Virus record (IMG/VR): IMGVR_UViG_3300042691_037166
Location: 1-23,037 of that record
Reading direction: 5' to 3' (one strand)
DNA: 23,037 nucleotides
Source: a virus
Position numbers and translations under genes: made by a program. The notes below the pieces were generated by a model. The model was not told the origin of the DNA. It did not search any database and saw only the letters and a list, made by a program, of their open reading frames with translations. Positions 5,040 to 23,037 of the stretch are shown in pieces. The number at the start of each line of letters is the position of its first letter. Position 1 is the first letter of the stretch.

Positions 5040-6389
5040 TTATGCTAAATTTTGTGGCGATAGTGTGAATGAGTGAACTAATCCTCTATCTACCAATGAG
5101 TTTGGTTTATTGATATTCTTTGCTTTAAATCTAATCGGTTTATAACCAGTCATCTCATCGTAAAAAATTTCAAAAGTATCTTGGTTATAATTAGTTTCGG
5201 TTTTCCAATCGGCAATTTCCATGGTTGGCGAATCAATCTGAACGATTGCTTGTTTGCCCATCAGTACAGAGTAATTGATTTTAGCTCCTGCTCCTGTTGT
5301 TGTTGTAGGAGTAGTAAATTGCATTTGACTTAATAAGTCTGATACATAAACATCAGTATTACCAATTTGCATAACAAAATTTGAACCATTGTATAAAGAA
5401 GGTTGTCCCACTACTTCTCTAAATGCTCTATTTATTTGTTGTTGATACTCACTTGTTCTACGTAAACCTTCAAAGGCATCTCGTGAAATAAATATTACAT
5501 AACCCATTGCTGGAGTATTATTGAAACTAGTTGTTATAAGAGGATATACAGAATCTTCAGTTCCAGTTATTCTTGAGCCAATACGTGCTAGTTCAATCAT
5601 TCTTTGTAAGTGAGATACTGTTAAAATAGCTGAATCTCTATCGTTTATATTGGCCGCTGTTTCATTTCCAAACAAGCCAGCATTAGCTATTTGAGTTGCT
5701 ATAGTGGCTCCTCCTCCTCCTATAGGAGCAGTAATAAGCAACTGGTCGCCACCAAACACGCACCTATCAAAAGAAACAACGTCTCCTGCAGCATTAGGAG
5801 TATCTACGCCACACACAGGAATATAAGCTGGTACATTTTGTTGAAATGGTATTGTTCCTTCTATTATGTAATTTGTATAATAGAATTCATCTGTTTTTAA
5901 TTCGTTTACATTTGGTTTATTTGCATAATAAAGGGCGTTTTGTGCAAAGCATTTAGCAAATTGATTATAAACTTGGCTAATATGCATTTGAGCTATTCCA
6001 TTTTTTAGATTAGCGTACATTTGAGATATAAAATCCATCCCAAGTTGTGGTTTTACATATCTGTGGTCGTAAGTCATCATTTTTAACTTTACGAATGATT
6101 GTTTTACATTCATAGAGTCAACTGAAGGAGCTACACCCTTATTTGTAGTATCTGTGCCTCTAAAATAAGGTTGTAAGTTCTCATAATTCAATTTTGGAAT
6201 TACTAACTCTGTGCTGTCTATTGACTGTTTTACTGTTATAGCGCTTTCCGCTTTTGTACCTCTCAAGAAATAGAAAGGGTCGTTCATTTTGAGATGGTCT
6301 ATTATCTCGTTTTTGTATACTTCGCCATGAGTACGTAAAAATAATTCTTTTATTTGCTCTAGCTGTAAATTGGGTATGTGTTTTGACAT
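5040..6389 (-). CDS. Major capsid protein (449 aa)
   Basis: A 449-residue protein directly after the scaffold gene, the usual place of the major head protein. It has no membrane segment and a mixed alpha/beta pattern. The stretch from GYVIFISRDAFEGLRRTSEY to the following LYNGSNFVMQIGNTDVYVSD (about residues 290-350) resembles the N4 gp56-type major capsid family (HK97 fold), in which a conserved aromatic-rich segment is followed by an Arg-rich helix and a beta hairpin bearing GNxDVYVS. A glycine-rich loop (APIGGGGATIA, about residue 221 onward) may be the surface-exposed or flexible arm. No obvious Shine-Dalgarno lies before ATG 6389, but a promoter is seen in the gap upstream, which would allow high separate expression. 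The family assignment is by eye; the structural role is more certain than the family. Confidence 0.82.
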   Translation of the reverse strand: MSKHIPNLQLEQIKELFLRTHGEVYKNEIIDHLKMNDPFYFLRGTKAESAITVKQSIDSTELVIPKLNYENLQPYFRGTDTTNKGVAPSVDSMNVKQSFVKLKMMTYDHRYVKPQLGMDFISQMYANLKNGIAQMHISQVYNQFAKCFAQNALYYANKPNVNELKTDEFYYTNYIIEGTIPFQQNVPAYIPVCGVDTPNAAGDVVSFDRCVFGGDQLLITAPIGGGGATIATQIANAGLFGNETAANINDRDSAILTVSHLQRMIELARIGSRITGTEDSVYPLITTSFNNTPAMGYVIFISRDAFEGLRRTSEYQQQINRAFREVVGQPSLYNGSNFVMQIGNTDVYVSDLLSQMQFTTPTTTTGAGAKINYSVLMGKQAIVQIDSPTMEIADWKTETNYNQDTFEIFYDEMTGYKPIRFKAKNINKPNSLVDRGLVHSFTLSPQNLA

Positions 6390-7512: not shown

Positions 7513-9309
7513 TTAATTAGCTTGTTGTTGGGTTTGTTGTTGTGTCATTTGTTGTAACTGAGCGTTTTGGTCTTGCCATGGATTTACTCCTTGGCTTCTC
7601 ATGAGTTGCTTTGATAAATATACTTTATATTCTTCTGATATATCGTAAGCCGTCTGCTCTGAAAGTCCTAACCTTTCCATTGCTGAGGGTGTAGTTAATA
7701 TATAGTCTTTGTTTGGGTCTTGTAAAATTGATAAATATATTGATTTTTCCTCTTCTACTGTAGTGCTAAAATTAGTTGTAGGCTCAGGTATAACTTGAAA
7801 ATCTAATAATGATATTTCCTCAGTTAAGACGGATACTTTCGCTTGACCTTTTTTGTAAAACTGTATAATCTCTTCAAATTCTTTAATTCCCTTGAGTGTA
7901 TCAAGCATCAATTGACCCTCTGAAATAACTGATTGTCTTAATTCACGCATAATTGAACTAGACGCATTTATAGTCAATTGGGCTCTATTCATGATAGCTA
8001 CACCAGACGTTGCATTGGTTTGCATTCCCTCGTAATCATCAAAGATACCAGTTACTCTTTGCAATTCATCTTGCAAATACTTTATGTAATTTAAATAACC
8101 ATCAACCACATTTTGAGAAGACGATACTATTTTTATTTTCTCGGGGTCAGTTAAAAGTAGCAACCCATTTTTTTTGTTTCTCTCTACTGCATATGCTTCA
8201 GATAATACGTCAGGGTCTTGACCTACCGCAGTTGTCGCCATCATTAATTGAGCGTCCCTAAACTGTACATACTCAGTAATAGTTTGATTCAACATATCTT
8301 GAATAGGTAAAGCTTCTCTCATTAAGCCTACTGGTTCTCCTTCGTTATTGTCATAAAACATAAAAGTGTAAGGGAAATACTTTTGATTAGGGACTTGTTC
8401 GGCGATTGGGTCATTTTCAAACAAGATATTATTAGTGAAAACTGAACGCCAAATAATAGTGCCTTCGTTTTCTTCTATTGGTCTAAATCTACCTTCCTCA
8501 TCTTTACTATACTTTTCTGCAATATCTTTATGAAAAGTTTTAAACGTATGTATAACATTATCGTCTTCATCTTGTAATAATGCTGTGCCTGTATAATACT
8601 TTTGTCTCTTTTTTTGGTATATCTCAGCAACCCTAATTGAATTGCCGTTTACAGTCCAGTTTTGAGATGGTATGTTGTACCATTCTGAGATATTGGGCGG
8701 TGCATTTTTTTGTTCTTCTTGGATTAGCTCGTTAATTTCTTTTTCCTTGTCAGGATAAAGCAACAACAAATCGTCTCTATGTACAAATCTTACTCTCATC
8801 AAGATTTTTTGATTCTCAAATCTTGACGTTAGGTCGTCTGGATCCCAAAACATCTCTCTAGGGTCAATGTATTCATAAACAAATTTATCTTTTTCTCTTC
8901 TGAACGTGCTACACCCTATACCTCCCAACAATGCATCTTTTGCTTTTAGCTGAGAGTATAATTGATGATTGCTTTGAGTCTGTTGGTTTAATGCCCATTG
9001 TTTAATATCTTCTGCAATTTTTTTATGTACTTTCATAGAAGAAAGCGGAATAAAACCACTTCTAAAAGAGTTTTTATTCAATATGCTTAAAATCTTTTTT
9101 GTTTTATAGTTAATAGCATTTATTGTTTTGCAGCTCCAGCCATATTGACCTTCGAGTCTATCTAGAGTTTCTTTATCCCATTGAATCCCAAAATAGTAAT
9201 TCAATATTCTTGTATAATTGCTTAGCCATTTTTGGCGGCTTTGAGAATTTACTAAATAATTATACTTATCTAATAGCTGAGTTATTATAGCTTGTTCTGT
9301 ATTCTTCAT
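7513..9309 (-). CDS. Portal protein, P22-type (598 aa)
   Basis: The portal is a dodecameric ring at one head vertex through which terminase drives DNA and to which the tail binds. This 598-residue protein shows the P22-type pattern: an N-terminal helical region, then YIDPREMFWDPDDLTSRFEN (147-166), followed by a wing with IRVAEIYQKKRQKYY (225-239). A stem region comes next (GEPVGLMREALPIQDMLNQT, then ITEYVQFRDAQLMM, residues 324-357) and TNATSGVAIMNRAQL (431-445). The C-terminus is Gln-rich (residues 579-597), possibly a barrel-like extension reaching into the head as in P22. Its start overlaps the previous gene by four bases (ATGA-type coupling), so translation is likely coupled. Length is shorter than the 725-residue P22 portal but normal for relatives. 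Confidence 0.85.
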   Translation of the reverse strand: MKNTEQAIITQLLDKYNYLVNSQSRQKWLSNYTRILNYYFGIQWDKETLDRLEGQYGWSCKTINAINYKTKKILSILNKNSFRSGFIPLSSMKVHKKIAEDIKQWALNQQTQSNHQLYSQLKAKDALLGGIGCSTFRREKDKFVYEYIDPREMFWDPDDLTSRFENQKILMRVRFVHRDDLLLLYPDKEKEINELIQEEQKNAPPNISEWYNIPSQNWTVNGNSIRVAEIYQKKRQKYYTGTALLQDEDDNVIHTFKTFHKDIAEKYSKDEEGRFRPIEENEGTIIWRSVFTNNILFENDPIAEQVPNQKYFPYTFMFYDNNEGEPVGLMREALPIQDMLNQTITEYVQFRDAQLMMATTAVGQDPDVLSEAYAVERNKKNGLLLLTDPEKIKIVSSSQNVVDGYLNYIKYLQDELQRVTGIFDDYEGMQTNATSGVAIMNRAQLTINASSSIMRELRQSVISEGQLMLDTLKGIKEFEEIIQFYKKGQAKVSVLTEEISLLDFQVIPEPTTNFSTTVEEEKSIYLSILQDPNKDYILTTPSAMERLGLSEQTAYDISEEYKVYLSKQLMRSQGVNPWQDQNAQLQQMTQQQTQQQAN

Positions 9310-15295: not shown

Positions 15296-16603
15296 CTAAT
15301 ATCTTTTTACAACTACATTATTGCTAAATGTTACTTTACTTACTAATATAGCATCTTCTAGAGCATACCGCAACGCATCAATGCAATGATTCCATTTGTC
15401 CTCAGGTTTAATCGTTATTTGCTCGCTTCTATCGTCTACTTCATAGCTATATCTTGAAAACTCTTGAGCTACATGTGTACAACGACTATGAATATATATT
15501 TTTTTGAACGCTTTTATATACTCAATCCCTGCTTCAACTGAGCCTTTCGGTTTTCTTGCTCCAATTGCAGGGTAACCATGTCTATTCAAGTAATCAATTC
15601 TTACGGGGTCTGCTGAATCACACTTCATTACATACCTGCCATGTTTCTTGTAATCAGGCAAATAGCACTCAAGAAAACTGCCCGTATGGTCTAGTGCAAG
15701 TTCGTGCTTTACAAATTCATGAGTAATATATAAGCAATCGTCATCAACGTAGCATCTTATAGCCGCCAAAGGGTCAACGGAAAAGCCCCAATCTAAGCCA
15801 AAAAACAAGTGCATGTTTGGTTTTTCTTCAAAGTCCCTCACCACAAATTTGCCTTTGAATATTTGCGACTCTGAAACTGTACGCAAGCCCCCTAGATAAA
15901 TATGCTCGTATTTTTCATAGTCGTATTCCTTCAGGTAATTAATTGAGTCTAACACGAACTCATCTATGTAAGGGTTATCAAGATAATTAGCTTTTAAAAC
16001 AAGCGAGCTGTTAGGTTGATTAAGTATAAAATGCTTATAAATAAAATCCGTTTCATATTTTGGATTGAACGTAAATATCATTTGAGCCTGCGACTCTGCG
16101 TCAACTGCTCTAGCTCGAACTGTCGGCTCTATCAACATAAACTCGCTTTCTGTCATGCTATCAGATTCTTCAATCCAAACTCTGAATAAATCCGTCATCG
16201 ACTTCAGGTTTTCAATGTTGAATTTGAACCCTTTGAAATAAAATATTGTATTAGTAAATTTATTAACTATTGTATCACGATTAATAATAAAGCAATTGAT
16301 TAGACCTAGCTTGTTAATTGTTTTAACGACTTGTGCGTGTTGTGATGCGTCTGTTGCATCTTTAAATTTTCTTGCGCATAAGATAATATTCGTGGGGTCT
16401 CCTTTTATGAAACTGTCCAGTACAAGTTTTTCTGAAATTACCGTACTTCTCCCTGTGTTCCTACCCCCACAACATACTAGAAATCTGTAGTTTTTTTTAA
16501 ATATGTCCCTAGCCCAAGGAATAGGTTTATAGTTACTTATTGCATTTTCTATTTCACTTTCGCTAAATCTAATCGACTGAATCTTTCTTCTCTTCTTCGT
16601 CAT
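15296..16603 (-). CDS. terL: Terminase large subunit (435 aa)
   Basis: The packaging motor and nuclease that cuts concatemeric DNA and pumps it through the portal. The N-terminal ATPase has a Walker A-like loop CCGGRNTGRSTVI (residues 44-56), a Walker B RVWIEESDSM (141-150, Glu145-Glu146) and an FTFNP coupling motif (177-181). The C-terminal RNase H-type nuclease has GLDWG (Asp271), CDSADP (Asp329) and HCIDALRYAL (Asp409), three acidic residues at family spacing. In Walker A the usual Lys is replaced by Arg (GRNTGRS). The length and order fit the PBSX/HK97-like terminase families. The start overlaps the small subunit by 35 bases in another frame. Confidence in the family is high. Confidence 0.95.
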   Translation of the reverse strand: MTKKRRKIQSIRFSESEIENAISNYKPIPWARDIFKKNYRFLVCCGGRNTGRSTVISEKLVLDSFIKGDPTNIILCARKFKDATDASQHAQVVKTINKLGLINCFIINRDTIVNKFTNTIFYFKGFKFNIENLKSMTDLFRVWIEESDSMTESEFMLIEPTVRARAVDAESQAQMIFTFNPKYETDFIYKHFILNQPNSSLVLKANYLDNPYIDEFVLDSINYLKEYDYEKYEHIYLGGLRTVSESQIFKGKFVVRDFEEKPNMHLFFGLDWGFSVDPLAAIRCYVDDDCLYITHEFVKHELALDHTGSFLECYLPDYKKHGRYVMKCDSADPVRIDYLNRHGYPAIGARKPKGSVEAGIEYIKAFKKIYIHSRCTHVAQEFSRYSYEVDDRSEQITIKPEDKWNHCIDALRYALEDAILVSKVTFSNNVVVKRY

Positions 16604-16970
16604 CTTTCAATCTTTGCATTGCTCGTTTGTAAATCTCATTTATAGCTTGATTATTTCTTGGTCTATAGTTTTCCAAGTCTTCTTCTTCTATGAAGTTGTA
16701 TAAATTCGTATGCTTCTTTAATGCGTCTATCGCTTTTACGTCCCCAGCTTTTGCTCTTTCGTACAATGTATCGTTTATTTCTTCAATGCTCAATGCTTGT
16801 GCTTTTCTATAAATCTTGAACAAATGATAGTTGTCTGTCAAGAATTCGTTTATATCTTCAATTCCTATTTTATCAGCTACGAGATTTAATGAAATTCCCA
16901 ACTTCCCAGCTTTCTCAAATTCTTCTTTTAGCTGCTGTCCCGTCAGTCCAAAAGCTAGCATTGTTGTCAT
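16569..16970 (-). CDS. terS: Terminase small subunit (133 aa)
   Basis: A 133-residue helical protein directly upstream of TerL, overlapping it by 35 bases. It has an N-terminal helix-turn-helix-like region (residues 8-50: LTGQQLKEEFEKAGKLGISL and following helices). A core with AGDVKAIDALKKHTNLYN follows, the usual TerS oligomerisation pattern, and then a charged tail ending KDSVD. TerS rings recognise the packaging (pac or cos) site and load TerL. The ATG at 16970 is preferred because its first base pairs with an ATGA overlap: the stop TGA of the upstream 52-residue frame lies inside it. A second ATG three codons later is an alternative. Confidence 0.88.
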   Translation of the reverse strand: MTTMLAFGLTGQQLKEEFEKAGKLGISLNLVADKIGIEDINEFLTDNYHLFKIYRKAQALSIEEINDTLYERAKAGDVKAIDALKKHTNLYNFIEEEDLENYRPRNNQAINEIYKRAMQRLKDDEEEKKDSVD

Positions 16971-17125
16971 TTTCCGTTGAAATCCACATCTACGTTAAAA
17001 TTTTTTTCTATCACGTTTTCTATAGCTTCTTCAATCTCATTGTTCTTGCCTAGAAATTTCACGCTTATTAACAATGCAATAATCAATATTGCTAATATTA
17101 TATATTTTATCATGTTCTTGCCCAT
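16967..17125 (-). CDS. Small single-span membrane protein (52 aa)
   Basis: A 52-codon frame starting at ATG 17125 (or ATG 17113) and ending in a TGA that overlaps the terminase small-subunit ATG (ATGA), so their translation is coupled. It encodes a short basic N-terminus (MGKNMIKYI), one hydrophobic helix (about residues 8-25, ILAILIIALLISV) and a charged tail rich in Asp, Glu and Lys (GKNNEIEEAIENVIEKNFNV). The shape matches small phage membrane proteins such as holin or pinholin candidates, or regulatory peptides, but no catalytic site is visible and the role is unknown. The start lies four bases downstream of the 11-bp inverted repeat described separately. Confidence 0.7.
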   Translation of the reverse strand: MGKNMIKYIILAILIIALLISVKFLGKNNEIEEAIENVIEKNFNVDVDFNGK

Positions 17126-17128
17126 TTT

Positions 17129-17180
17129 GTAACAATAGCAAAAATGGAGGAGGAGTCATGAATAAAAGTGCTATTGTTAC
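17129..17180. repeat. 11-bp perfect inverted repeat (hairpin) with 30-base loop
   Basis: GTAACAATAGC (17129-17139) and its exact complement GCTATTGTTAC (17170-17180) flank a 30-base loop. On the plus strand the loop holds the ribosome binding site and start codon of the 33-codon frame. On the minus strand the loop contains CTCCTCCTCC, complementary to a ribosome binding site. Because the arms are inverted, both RNA strands fold alike and their loops would be complementary to each other. No T-run follows, so it is not a simple terminator. Confidence 0.7.
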
Positions 17181-17259
17181 ATGTACAATTAATAACAATA
17201 CAGCAAAAGTGATTACGTTGCAAGAGAAATACGACAAAAACTTACTTACAACTTCGTAG
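17158..17259 (+). CDS. Small peptide ORF with a very strong ribosome binding site (33 aa)
   Basis: This rightward frame starts at ATG 17158, preceded by the near-ideal ribosome site GGAGGAGGAG (two bases away at its closest; overlapping GGAGG words give spacings of 2 to 8). It encodes a 33-residue, Asn/Thr/Lys-rich peptide (MNKSAIVTCTINNNTAKVI...). In DNA this poor in G, such a purine-rich tract by chance is unlikely. It sits inside the loop of an inverted repeat and antisense to the leader of the leftward operon. No rightward promoter is clear immediately upstream. It could be a leader peptide, a small regulator, or a chance frame in an antisense RNA. Confidence 0.4.
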   Translation: MNKSAIVTCTINNNTAKVITLQEKYDKNLLTTS

Positions 17260-17399: not shown

Positions 17400-17429
17400 A
17401 TTATAACATTATTATTTTTAGTATGTCAA
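17400..17429 (-). promoter_or_regulatory. Leftward sigma70 promoter for the late block
   Basis: On the minus strand TTGACA (17429-17424), 18 bases, then TATAAT (17405-17400): both hexamers are perfect. Transcription would start near 17393, leaving a leader of about 270 bases before the 52-residue gene. The spacer carries CTAAAAATAATAATGT, found again in the rightward promoter at 17861-17890. This is the best promoter candidate for the packaging and structural genes. Confidence 0.7.
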
Positions 17430-17442
17430 GTAGTGTTTTTGC

Positions 17443-17487
17443 AATTGTATATAGTTTGTATGTGAAAAATGTTATAATTGTATATAG
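17443..17487. repeat. Direct repeat AATTGTATATAG x2
   Basis: AATTGTATATAG occurs at 17443-17454 and 17476-17487, exactly 33 bases apart (about three helical turns). The pair is upstream of the leftward promoter. In this position it could be a binding site for a repressor or activator. AT-rich repeats can also arise by chance, so confidence is moderate. Confidence 0.45.
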
Positions 17488-17488
17488 A

Positions 17489-17506
17489 TTGCTAAAATTT
17501 TGCTAA
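17489..17506. repeat. TTGCTAA pair with 11-base phasing
   Basis: TTGCTAA is present at 17489-17495 and 17500-17506, starting 11 bases apart. Together with the triplet at 17735-17763 it forms five copies with one-helical-turn phasing. It lies about 60 bases upstream of the leftward promoter. A protein binding side by side on one face of the helix could occupy these sites. Confidence 0.5.
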
Positions 17507-17547
17507 TAAACATAGAAAACATTACCATCTACATTACCATCTTTTTT

Positions 17548-17582
17548 GCGTCTTCCGTGGCTCTGTCTTGCGGGTTTCGGGC
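17548..17582. other. GC-rich island within AT-rich control DNA
   Basis: About two-thirds of these 35 bases are G or C, against roughly a quarter in the surrounding gap. It follows the tandem ACATTACCATCT pair. Read leftward it could encode the end of a short frame (PETRKTEPRKTQKRW), the only basic peptide-like stretch there. It may be an imported scrap, a protein-binding core or part of a small RNA. Nothing decides. Confidence 0.35.
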
Positions 17583-17606
17583 ATGAAAATTACCACATTA
17601 CCATCT

Positions 17607-17716
17607 ATAGCTAGAAAATATATATAAAATATATATATAGGGGGTATATTATATTCTCTTATAATAGTAAATATATAGTAATGATAGTAATGTATATTAT
17701 ATATATCTTCTATTCT
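17607..17716. other. AT-rich stretch, possible unwinding element
   Basis: This 110-base segment is nearly all A and T (long TATA runs) except a GGGGG at about 17639-17644. It lies between the third and fourth 12-mers. Iterated sites beside an AT-rich stretch are the usual build of an origin with a DNA unwinding element, so I flag it as a candidate origin. In an AT-rich genome such a stretch is common, so this is weak evidence alone. Confidence 0.3.
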
Positions 17717-17734
17717 TAGCCAAAAACTTATCAT

Positions 17735-17764
17735 TGCTAACTACTTGCTAACTACTTGCTAACA
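17735..17764. repeat. Triple TTGCTAAC tandem repeat, 11-base phasing
   Basis: TTGCTAACTAC at 17735-17745 and 17746-17756, then TTGCTAAC at 17757-17764, gives three head-to-tail copies with an 11-base period. The set ends nine bases before the -35 hexamer of the 17773 promoter. Together with the pair at 17489-17506 it makes two groups, each lying upstream of a promoter for its own direction. An activator or repressor binding array is a natural reading. Confidence 0.6.
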
Positions 17765-17772
17765 TTACCATC

Positions 17773-17802
17773 TTGACATTCACTAAAAATAATATATACA
17801 CT
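17773..17802 (+). promoter_or_regulatory. Rightward promoter with the shared spacer
   Basis: TTGACA (17773-17778) is followed by an 18-base spacer containing CTAAAAATAATA and by TACACT (17797-17802), matching TATAAT at four of six positions. TATACA at 17795-17800 is a 16-base alternative. The fourth ACATTACCATCT copy abuts the -35 and the phased TTGCTAA triplet lies just upstream. Transcripts would read into the early operon. Confidence 0.5.
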
Positions 17803-17860
17803 ATCATTGTTAGCTAAATTAATAACAAAACATATATAAACAATAAATAAAAATTAATAG

Positions 17861-17890
17861 TTGACATGCTAAAAATAATAATGTAATAAT
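17861..17890 (+). promoter_or_regulatory. Rightward early-operon promoter, twin of the leftward promoter
   Basis: TTGACA (17861-17866), an 18-base spacer with CTAAAAATAATAATGT and AATAAT (17885-17890); TAATAA one base earlier gives the 17-base spacing. Over 30 bases it differs from the leftward promoter at only two positions (position 8, A versus G; position 25, T versus A). Transcription would start about 30 bases before the first early ATG at 17928, which has a GGAG ribosome site. This is the best promoter for the early block. Confidence 0.65.
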
Positions 17891-17927
17891 ATTAATATAA
17901 CTAAAAATAAAAAATGGAGATTTAACT

Positions 17928-20877: not shown

Positions 20878-21678
20878 ATGAAAAACAATATCAAAACTAA
20901 ACTAATAATAGCATCATTGCTAATAAGTATAACAGCACTATATATTTACTTCTTTCACTTTGTAAAGACTATAGACACGAATAATAGAAACTGTTATAAC
21001 TCATGCCCAAAAGTTACTCAAGACACAGAAGACTCAACGTTTATTGATAACGACTTATACGTTGTAAGCTTTAATAAGAAAACAAAATTTGCAAATTATG
21101 TAGCTCACAAAGTTAAAAAAAGAAACATTCTAGGTAAATTCAAAGAAAGAGAATATATAAAAGACCCTAAGCTTTTTGCTACAGATACAATCTTTAATGA
21201 AGACTATAAAAATGCAAATTCTGTATGCAAATACGATAAAGGCCACTTAGCAACTCTCTCAGACTTTAGCAACAACAAAGATAGTTATAAACTGAACTAT
21301 AGCAGTAACTTAGTACCGCAAAACTCATTTATTAATCAAGTACCTATCAACAAACTTGAGCGAAAAATACAATCTTTAACTTCAATTTATGATGACATAT
21401 ACGTAGTTTCAGGCGTTTTCTACAAGAAGAATGCTTTTATGTGTGAATGGAATACTAACAAACGTATAGATTATATTATTCCCTCAGGTTACTATAAAAT
21501 AGTACTTGCAGTCAAAGATAAAATAATATATACTTCTACTTTTGTTTTTGATGCAAAAGATAAAAGCGACAAAATATGCAATTATGCATCAAACATAAAA
21601 TACGTTTCAAAAATAGCTAATACTGAGTTTAGTTTTAAAGATAGCGAAGAAATAAAAGAGTTCAAATGTAAAAAATAG
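20878..21678 (+). CDS. Membrane-anchored DNA/RNA non-specific endonuclease (266 aa)
   Basis: An NUC-type (His-Me finger) nuclease, the family that includes NucA and EndA and cuts single- or double-stranded DNA and RNA with a metal ion. The family pattern is present: D120-K121-G122-H123 (normally DRGH; His123 is the general base), NLVPQNSFIN (144-153, metal-binding Asn and neighbours), Glu161, VVSGVFY (177-183) and IPSGYYKIVL (201-210). The N-terminus is basic, then a single hydrophobic helix (residues 8-28), suggesting anchoring with the nuclease facing the periplasm. Six cysteines (39, 43, 117, 189, 234, 264) fit disulfide bonding there. The Arg-to-Lys change in DRGH is conservative. Expression is from the early operon. 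Whether it degrades host DNA, blocks incoming DNA or aids uptake is not known. Confidence 0.85.
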   Translation: MKNNIKTKLIIASLLISITALYIYFFHFVKTIDTNNRNCYNSCPKVTQDTEDSTFIDNDLYVVSFNKKTKFANYVAHKVKKRNILGKFKEREYIKDPKLFATDTIFNEDYKNANSVCKYDKGHLATLSDFSNNKDSYKLNYSSNLVPQNSFINQVPINKLERKIQSLTSIYDDIYVVSGVFYKKNAFMCEWNTNKRIDYIIPSGYYKIVLAVKDKIIYTSTFVFDAKDKSDKICNYASNIKYVSKIANTEFSFKDSEEIKEFKCKK

Positions 21679-21806: not shown

Positions 21807-23037
21807 ATGACAAAACAACTCAACATCTCAATATTTGAAAACTATTTAAACATAAAAGCTATTCAAGAAAAAACGCTTACAATAGAGCAGTTCTATAAAT
21901 CTTTATCAGACTATATAACAAAAACTAAAGCTCAAAACTATAAAAATCTAGATGTTGAGAAAGTTAAAAGCAAAAAAATATTAGGTATTGTACCTGTTTT
22001 ATTCGATAACAAACGCAGACATGCTGACTCAATGTCTATATCGAAACGTTGTATGATAACAATAGATATAGATAGCTTTGCTGGCACTTTAGAAGAGTTG
22101 ATAATAGAGCTAAATAATAAGTTTTCTGAGCTATGCTATGTTACATATACAACAGCAAAAAGCACTATAGAAAAACCACGAATTCGCTTAATCTTTTTTC
22201 TGAGAGAAGACTTTAGCGTTACAACAAAACAAGAACAGGACTTATATAAAAAGAAAATTCAAGGTTTCTGTAAAAAATATTTTGGCGACTCAATAATAAA
22301 TCGTGATAAAAGACCTGACGGAGAAGGACATTATATCACTTTCACGAGAACAATATACGATGATAAGTTTGAAATAGACGACGCAAGCTATCAAGCAAAT
22401 AGATTGATGCTGTTACCCTTTTTCTATGATACAGAGCCATTTTTATACATGAACGAAGGCGAACTGGTAGACTTAGAAACAATTGAAATACAAGAAGCAG
22501 AAGAAAAAGTTAAAGCTTACACTAGCAAACAGCGTAACGTAAGTATTGACAATTCAACAACAGAAGACGATAGAAACGTTGCAGAGCTTGCAAAATTATT
22601 ATCAAACTTGCAACCATCCGAATTATCTTATCAAGAACGATTGAATGTTGGTTACGTTATAAAGTACGAGTTTCAAGGCTCAGAGAAGGGGCGAGAAATG
22701 TTTGCTAATTGGTGCTTGTTAGACAATACAAGAACATCAAGTACAGAAGCAATAATAAGCGAAGCGAACGCATCTTATAAGAGTATGCCTGAAGCAGGGA
22801 CAATCACTATTAGACGATATTATGTCTATTCGCTCATTGTAAAAATAGCTAACACTAAGAGAGTAAAACTTGATATAGAAGTATCATATAAACCTATCCC
22901 AAACCAACTATTCCCTGATATTTCTATCAAGAAAGACGGCAGCATAAAGATTCTAACAACTTATGCTAACATTGAATTTATGCTAGATTACTATAACACT
23001 AATATTTATCTAGATTTAGTAACAAAAGAGGTAAGCT
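21807..23037 (+). CDS. Replicative primase (AEP + PriCT-2-like), C-terminus beyond window
   Basis: A frame from ATG 21807 runs without a stop to the right edge, giving 410 complete codons. The N-terminal domain resembles an archaeo-eukaryotic primase: ITIDIDSF (84-91) holds the metal-binding Asp87-x-Asp89, followed by YTTAKSTIEKPRIRLIFFL (114-132), a motif-II-like region. Then come a likely PriCT-2 domain (about 258-327: AELAKLLSNLQ, SYQERLNVGYVIKYEF, MFANWCLLDN) and, from 363, PNQLFPDISIKKDGSIKI with YANIEFMLDYYNTN. The last part resembles the linker that opens VirE/D5-type SF3 helicase domains, so I expect a helicase outside the window. The usual motif-II His is not obvious (Lys in its place). 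It is the main replication gene of the early block. Confidence 0.8.
   Translation, partial: MTKQLNISIFENYLNIKAIQEKTLTIEQFYKSLSDYITKTKAQNYKNLDVEKVKSKKILGIVPVLFDNKRRHADSMSISKRCMITIDIDSFAGTLEELIIELNNKFSELCYVTYTTAKSTIEKPRIRLIFFLREDFSVTTKQEQDLYKKKIQGFCKKYFGDSIINRDKRPDGEGHYITFTRTIYDDKFEIDDASYQANRLMLLPFFYDTEPFLYMNEGELVDLETIEIQEAEEKVKAYTSKQRNVSIDNSTTEDDRNVAELAKLLSNLQPSELSYQERLNVGYVIKYEFQGSEKGREMFANWCLLDNTRTSSTEAIISEANASYKSMPEAGTITIRRYYVYSLIVKIANTKRVKLDIEVSYKPIPNQLFPDISIKKDGSIKILTTYANIEFMLDYYNTNIYLDLVTKEVS

Follow-up and report, generated by a model that had tools for sequence, protein, structure and literature searches.

In phage lambda, the early promoters P_L and P_R fire outward and carry a near-identical site in the region of the -35/-10 spacer, through which one repressor controls both arms of the genome; these O_L and O_R sites are 17-bp dyads bound by CI and Cro. 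Promoters are also found near iteron-type replication origins, in which tandem direct repeats lie beside AT-rich DNA. With the Cluster O mycobacteriophages (Corndog and its relatives), SigA-like divergent promoters occur in an AT-rich intergenic region together with a short repeat that is particular to these phages and has no known function, a 17-bp perfect dyad present in more than 30 copies genome-wide (PMC4351075).

The locus described here lies within a 23-kb virus record (23,037 nucleotides, hereafter the window), a fragment for which no end repeats are reported. What can be stated most firmly is that two divergent promoters, kept alike, form a hub at what is probably a replication origin. 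This arrangement was not encountered in searches of the literature.

Gene Context of the Divergent Promoters

The two promoters, also designated P_L and P_R, sit in a 0.96-kb gap between the divergent gene blocks of a podovirus fragment (Table 1). Packaging and structural genes make up the left-facing block, and early and replication genes the right-facing block. The nearest named phage is MAnkyphage_25.80 (OP381185), a podovirus of Candidatus Megaira polyxenophila in which the portal, capsid, and tail tube genes are ordered as in the window and the portal is only ~30% identical to the window's; no near-identical promoter pair was found in this phage. Its host is a Rickettsiales endosymbiont (PMC13134042). 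The 52-aa ORF downstream of P_L shares 39% identity over 46 aa with an ORF adjoining the lysozyme gene in the Megaira phage.

The first-pass annotation had suggested, as one possibility, that a common regulator of the promoters coordinates early and late transcription. The two sites do head opposite gene blocks, and the division into an early and a late arm is presumed from gene content only. Family searches recognized no HTH or repressor family among the early ORFs of the fragment, and no DNA-binding regulator was recognized in the window; single-sequence folds of two early ORFs gave an all-helical model (pLDDT 82) that matched no fold and a second model of poor quality, and pointed to no regulator. 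At 17128-17181, a 13-nt perfect inverted repeat surrounds GGAGGAGGAGTCATG, with which a possible plus-strand ORF of 34 aa begins; the repeat could hide the ribosome-binding site of this ORF.

Table 1. Positions of the genes, promoters, repeats, and core copies discussed for the window.
Feature	Position	Strand	Remarks
Major capsid	5040-6389	-	
Portal	7513-9309	-	
Terminase large subunit	15296-16603	-	
133-aa ORF directly before terminase large subunit	16569-16970	-	Small-subunit position; presumptive identity
52-aa membrane-type ORF	16967-17125	-	First plausible gene downstream of P_L
P_L, leftward promoter	17400-17429	-	TTGACA-18-TATAAT, 12/12; TGT extended -10; inferred start ~17393
Core copy ACTAAAAATAATA within P_L spacer	17410-17422	-	
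Iteron field	17518-17773	+	ACATTACCATCT at 17519, 17531, 17595, 17762; TGCTAAC at 17735, 17746, 17757
AT-rich stretch, 82% A+T	17600-17715		Between iterons; candidate unwinding region
Third, weaker promoter-like site	17773-17802	+	TTGACA-18-TACACT, 10/12; abuts an iteron
Core copy ACTAAAAATAATA in third site	17782-17794	+	
P_R, rightward promoter	17861-17890	+	TTGACA-18-AATAAT, 11/12; TGT extended -10; inferred start ~17897
Core copy GCTAAAAATAATA within P_R spacer	17868-17880	+	
Fourth core copy ACTAAAAATAAAA	17900-17912	+	Just past inferred P_R start
First rightward ORF, 129 aa	17928-18317	+	Hydrophobic N-terminal stretch; GGAG ribosome-binding site
Nuclease	20878-21678	+	
Primase/helicase-type protein	21807-23036	+	Runs off window; marks rightward block as replication genes

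A Matched Pair of Promoters

On the minus strand, P_L reads TTGACATACTAAAAATAATAATGTTATAAT (17429 to 17400) and, on the plus strand, P_R reads TTGACATGCTAAAAATAATAATGTAATAAT (17861 to 17890). The two agree at 28 of 30 bases, including 17 of the 18 in the spacer, which confirms the earlier observation of near-identical promoters firing in opposite directions. They form the sole inverted pair of 30-mers with at least 26 matches, at most 1.5 kb apart, in the whole window, and when the 957-bp gap was shuffled 500 times with dinucleotides preserved, the best inverted match was mostly 21 and never above 25/30. Both promoters, together with a third site, have sigma70-type hexamers within the accepted 16-18 nt of each other, at 18 nt in each case; TGT directly precedes the -10 of P_L and P_R, and a TGn is absent from the third site. 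The first-pass view that a sigma factor has no need of the spacer is only partly true, because the spacer ends in this TGT, the extended -10 that sigma contacts. Such a TGT tends to occur with spacers of 18 bp, and initiation can be influenced by the sequence of the spacer (PMC10911233). P_L and P_R are most likely extended -10 promoters of the host sigma70 type, predicted to drive both arms of the genome.

The matching block corresponds to the core promoter alone: identity reaches no further than the -35 hexamer on one side and the -10 hexamer on the other, a limit to be expected if the promoter is under constraint and not if it is a fresh copy, and the flanks are unrelated (17/40 upstream and 17/40 downstream). 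A recent duplication by inversion, offered by the first-pass annotation as a source of the pair, should leave similar flanks and is hence unlikely in the window.

The Third Site and Additional Core Copies

The site at 17773 had been listed as a third promoter. Its TTGACA, 18-nt spacing, and CTAAAAATAATA were borne out; it is nevertheless a weaker match and not a register-true copy, with the core beginning at position 11 from the first -35 base as opposed to position 9, a shift of 2 nt. Another core copy, the fourth, was overlooked earlier; it lies 32 bp, or about three turns of the helix, past the copy in the P_R spacer. The pattern RCTAAAAATAAWA, which was picked after the copies had been seen, occurs four times in the window, all within this 0.5 kb (0.12 expected); in shuffles of the AT-rich gap, some G/C-containing 10-mer reached at least four copies in 6 of 500, and the claim of a four-site core is suggestive only. 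Two of the four copies are out of promoter register, that at 17782 being shifted and that at 17900 lying outside a promoter, as for a free-standing recognition site. No dyad of the kind that many dimer-bound operators show was found in the core at arms of at least 12 nt.

A Putative Replication Origin

P_L and P_R bracket what is, from its repeats and base composition, a putative replication origin. Direct repeats of one short unit, ACATTACCATCT, accompany an AT-rich region, as in iteron origins, and a 12-mer present four times was obtained in none of 500 shuffles of the gap. No canonical DnaA box was found in the window gap. In the 1.92 Mb searched, L104/L109 alone share the exact 12-mer with the window, and have it in the corresponding gap; other iterons occupy the related gaps of L024 (GTGAATAAGGTGAATAAGG) and L110 (ATACCATCC), and DnaA boxes (TTATCCACA) are present in the corresponding gap of L024, L103, L104, L105, and L110.

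A rightward extended -10-like sequence, TGTTATAAT, reads into the iterons at 17465-17476. It possibly represents the middle promoter (TTGACATATCNACAAA...CGTATGAT) that seven relatives have conserved on this side of their iterons and that was located in L056 (2971, +), L104 (8177, -), L110 (8340, -), L111 (1262, -), L026 (1755, -), and L058 (3161, +). The 18-nt spacer of the middle promoter is nearly constant between phages, unlike those of P_L and P_R.

The Arrangement in Related Phages

Relatives were found by alignments, and 158 loci (1.92 Mb) were screened for near-identical inverted promoter pairs; some of these loci overlap and are not independent. L049, L056, L059, L101, and L142 represent the same or nearly the same phage as L024, and L109 the same as L104; L024, L104, and L110 are treated as a trio, and all relatives of the window are distant. 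Searches of viral contigs revealed neither the exact window promoter nor close relatives by portal or primase, and two matches to a shorter promoter pattern, both inside unrelated contigs, were rejected as chance. No relatives were found in the genome contigs searched, no DNA similarity was found to phage or plasmid records, and there was no Rfam match.

Near-identical pairs were identified only in the window, the L024 group, and L104/L109, in the same gap and around iterons, always facing outward and never inward. With L110, the two copies have 26 consecutive bases in common and the left -10 is poor. The spacer letters differ between phages and agree within each phage having the pair. Conservation of the spacer itself, on which the first-pass annotation had staked its reading, is literally lacking, the window spacer occurring in no related phage; the relation between the two promoters is kept instead. 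Among eight phages, matching within a phage's own pair exceeded that after re-pairing (0.00035), a value that partly reflects kinship; for the five most distant phages, with the window included and the close trio left out, the value was a marginal 0.067. The left and right promoters of L099, L102, L103, and L138 are clearly unlike, so matching is not obligatory, and L102 and L103 have the same right promoter and different left promoters.

Within the trio, likeness reaches ~35 nt upstream of the -35, which favors DNA-level copying over an operator in these relatives. The L024 arms extend over 66 nt, this upstream segment included, and are 86% alike; here the likeness does run into the flanks, as it does not in the window, and a recent inverted duplication is plausible for this one subclade. 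Spacer sites 7, 9, and 14 are the same within each phage of the trio and different between them, while sites 23, 27, and 29 are largely arm-specific. The left copy in the trio points toward an ORF of 65-77 aa with no known function (phrog_5643/4264), and where this ORF is missing (L111, L026, L114, and L058) the left promoter copy is missing also.

This small ORF (MKFIKYRQNL...TTSKHINYAAKELNL) adjoins the origin gap at 1458-1691 of L024, 8301-8498 of L104, and 8432-8665 of L110, where its predicted promoter is the inverted early-promoter copy, and it is also found next to the gap in L103, L097, L102, L119, and L099. The window has no such ORF, and assignment of its P_L to this gene, as in relatives, was ruled out. 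Two further elements were noted among the relatives. A large dyad (arms of ~24-27 nt, loop of ~30) immediately precedes the leftward promoter of the terminase operon (GGTAAATTTGACA) in L055 (1618-1705), L056 (2494-2580), L057 (1985-2075), and L058 (2960-3047); its arms vary between phages yet appear to remain complementary, and the window has no obvious equivalent. A leader of the early transcript, ACAAGAAATTTATGTGCAAyCTTTTCTTGTAGAAG, which may form a hairpin, is conserved at 3478-3525 of L056, 235-282 of L061, and about 1335-1375 of L057 (minus strand).

Maintenance of the Matched Pair

A shared operator-like site, homogenization within the genome, or the two together probably account for the continued likeness of the spacer core. 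Chance likeness is scarcely credible: the gap is ~75% A+T and contains many weak promoter-like matches (20 compared with 16.4 expected), but no shuffle exceeded 25/30 and the pair recurs at the same place in relatives. Selection for equal strength, by which both promoters, independently of any phage regulator, would have converged on whichever AT-rich extended -10 sequence serves the host polymerase best, is quite improbable. The near-optimal hexamers, TGT, and 18-nt spacing, along with the influence that a spacer can have on initiation, are as it would predict; convergence at 17 of 18 spacer positions is nonetheless improbable, the spacers of relatives are quite different, and the spacer is shared by none of the remaining promoter-like sites of the window. 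Homogenization, in which an inverted duplication is kept alike by gene conversion around the origin and the spacer likeness is without regulatory meaning, is less likely than not. The longer arms of the trio favor it, as do its concerted and arm-specific changes, a patchwork typical of conversion tracts, and the left copy comes and goes with the small ORF. Against it, the likeness in the window goes exactly as far as the hexamers and no further, additional copies of the core are present beyond the repeat, and the middle promoter has the same orientation in all seven relatives showing it, with no flipping of the segment seen. An invertible switch was likewise rejected, there being no flipped orientation among the relatives.

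A recognized site is favored by the abrupt limits of the match in the window, by the core that lies out of register, and by the fourth copy. Our judgment is evenly balanced on the reading that follows, namely that the region is a podovirus transcription hub in which P_L and P_R are kept near-identical by a common operator-like core at the probable origin. From two sides of the iteron field, P_L would fire into the packaging and structural arm and P_R into the early and replication arm, and a single factor could set both outputs through the core present in both spacers, in the third site, and past the P_R start. According to the twin-domain model, outward transcription may leave negative supercoils in the ~430 bp between the promoters and so help the AT-rich origin to open. 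The activity of the promoters, the identity of the origin, and the binding of a factor to the core are all presumed from the sequence. The proposal of the first-pass annotation that one protein reads all three promoters gains from likeness beyond chance, from the out-of-register cores, and from the recurrence of the layout, but no binding protein was found.

Implications

The same layout with different letters in some distant relatives suggests that both genome directions would be controlled together. A bolder proposition, which we regard as rather unlikely, is that a self-matching pair around an iteron origin constitutes a standard control module, in which a phage factor couples both arms to origin opening and the core and its factor have coevolved in each phage; such a module would span uncharacterized podoviruses, one relative of which infects a Rickettsiales endosymbiont. 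Nearly all that is known of this phage group comes from metagenomes, and the hub, a defined and testable segment of ~1 kb, points to where their transcription and probably their replication begin. Its two spacers, barely read by RNA polymerase, are alike within a genome and different between genomes, such that shared regulation and gene conversion become separable once closer relatives appear.

Comparison with Described Systems

The Cluster O phages offer the looser parallel, with divergent promoters in AT-rich intergenic DNA and a phage-specific short repeat; unlike theirs, the core found here has four copies, all at one hub. Neither an initiator gene nor a DnaA box was identified in this fragment, unlike iteron-type origins, with which the locus shares repeats and AT-rich DNA near promoters and, in relatives, DnaA boxes. 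The differences from lambda are that the core is without a clear dyad, that no repressor gene was recognized, and that the pair brackets iterons; because neither a dyad operator nor a repressor was found, the hub is not classed as a lambda-like member. The feature held in common with lambda P_L and P_R is the presence of the same site inside both divergent promoters, seen here as a 28/30 match with the core in both spacers.
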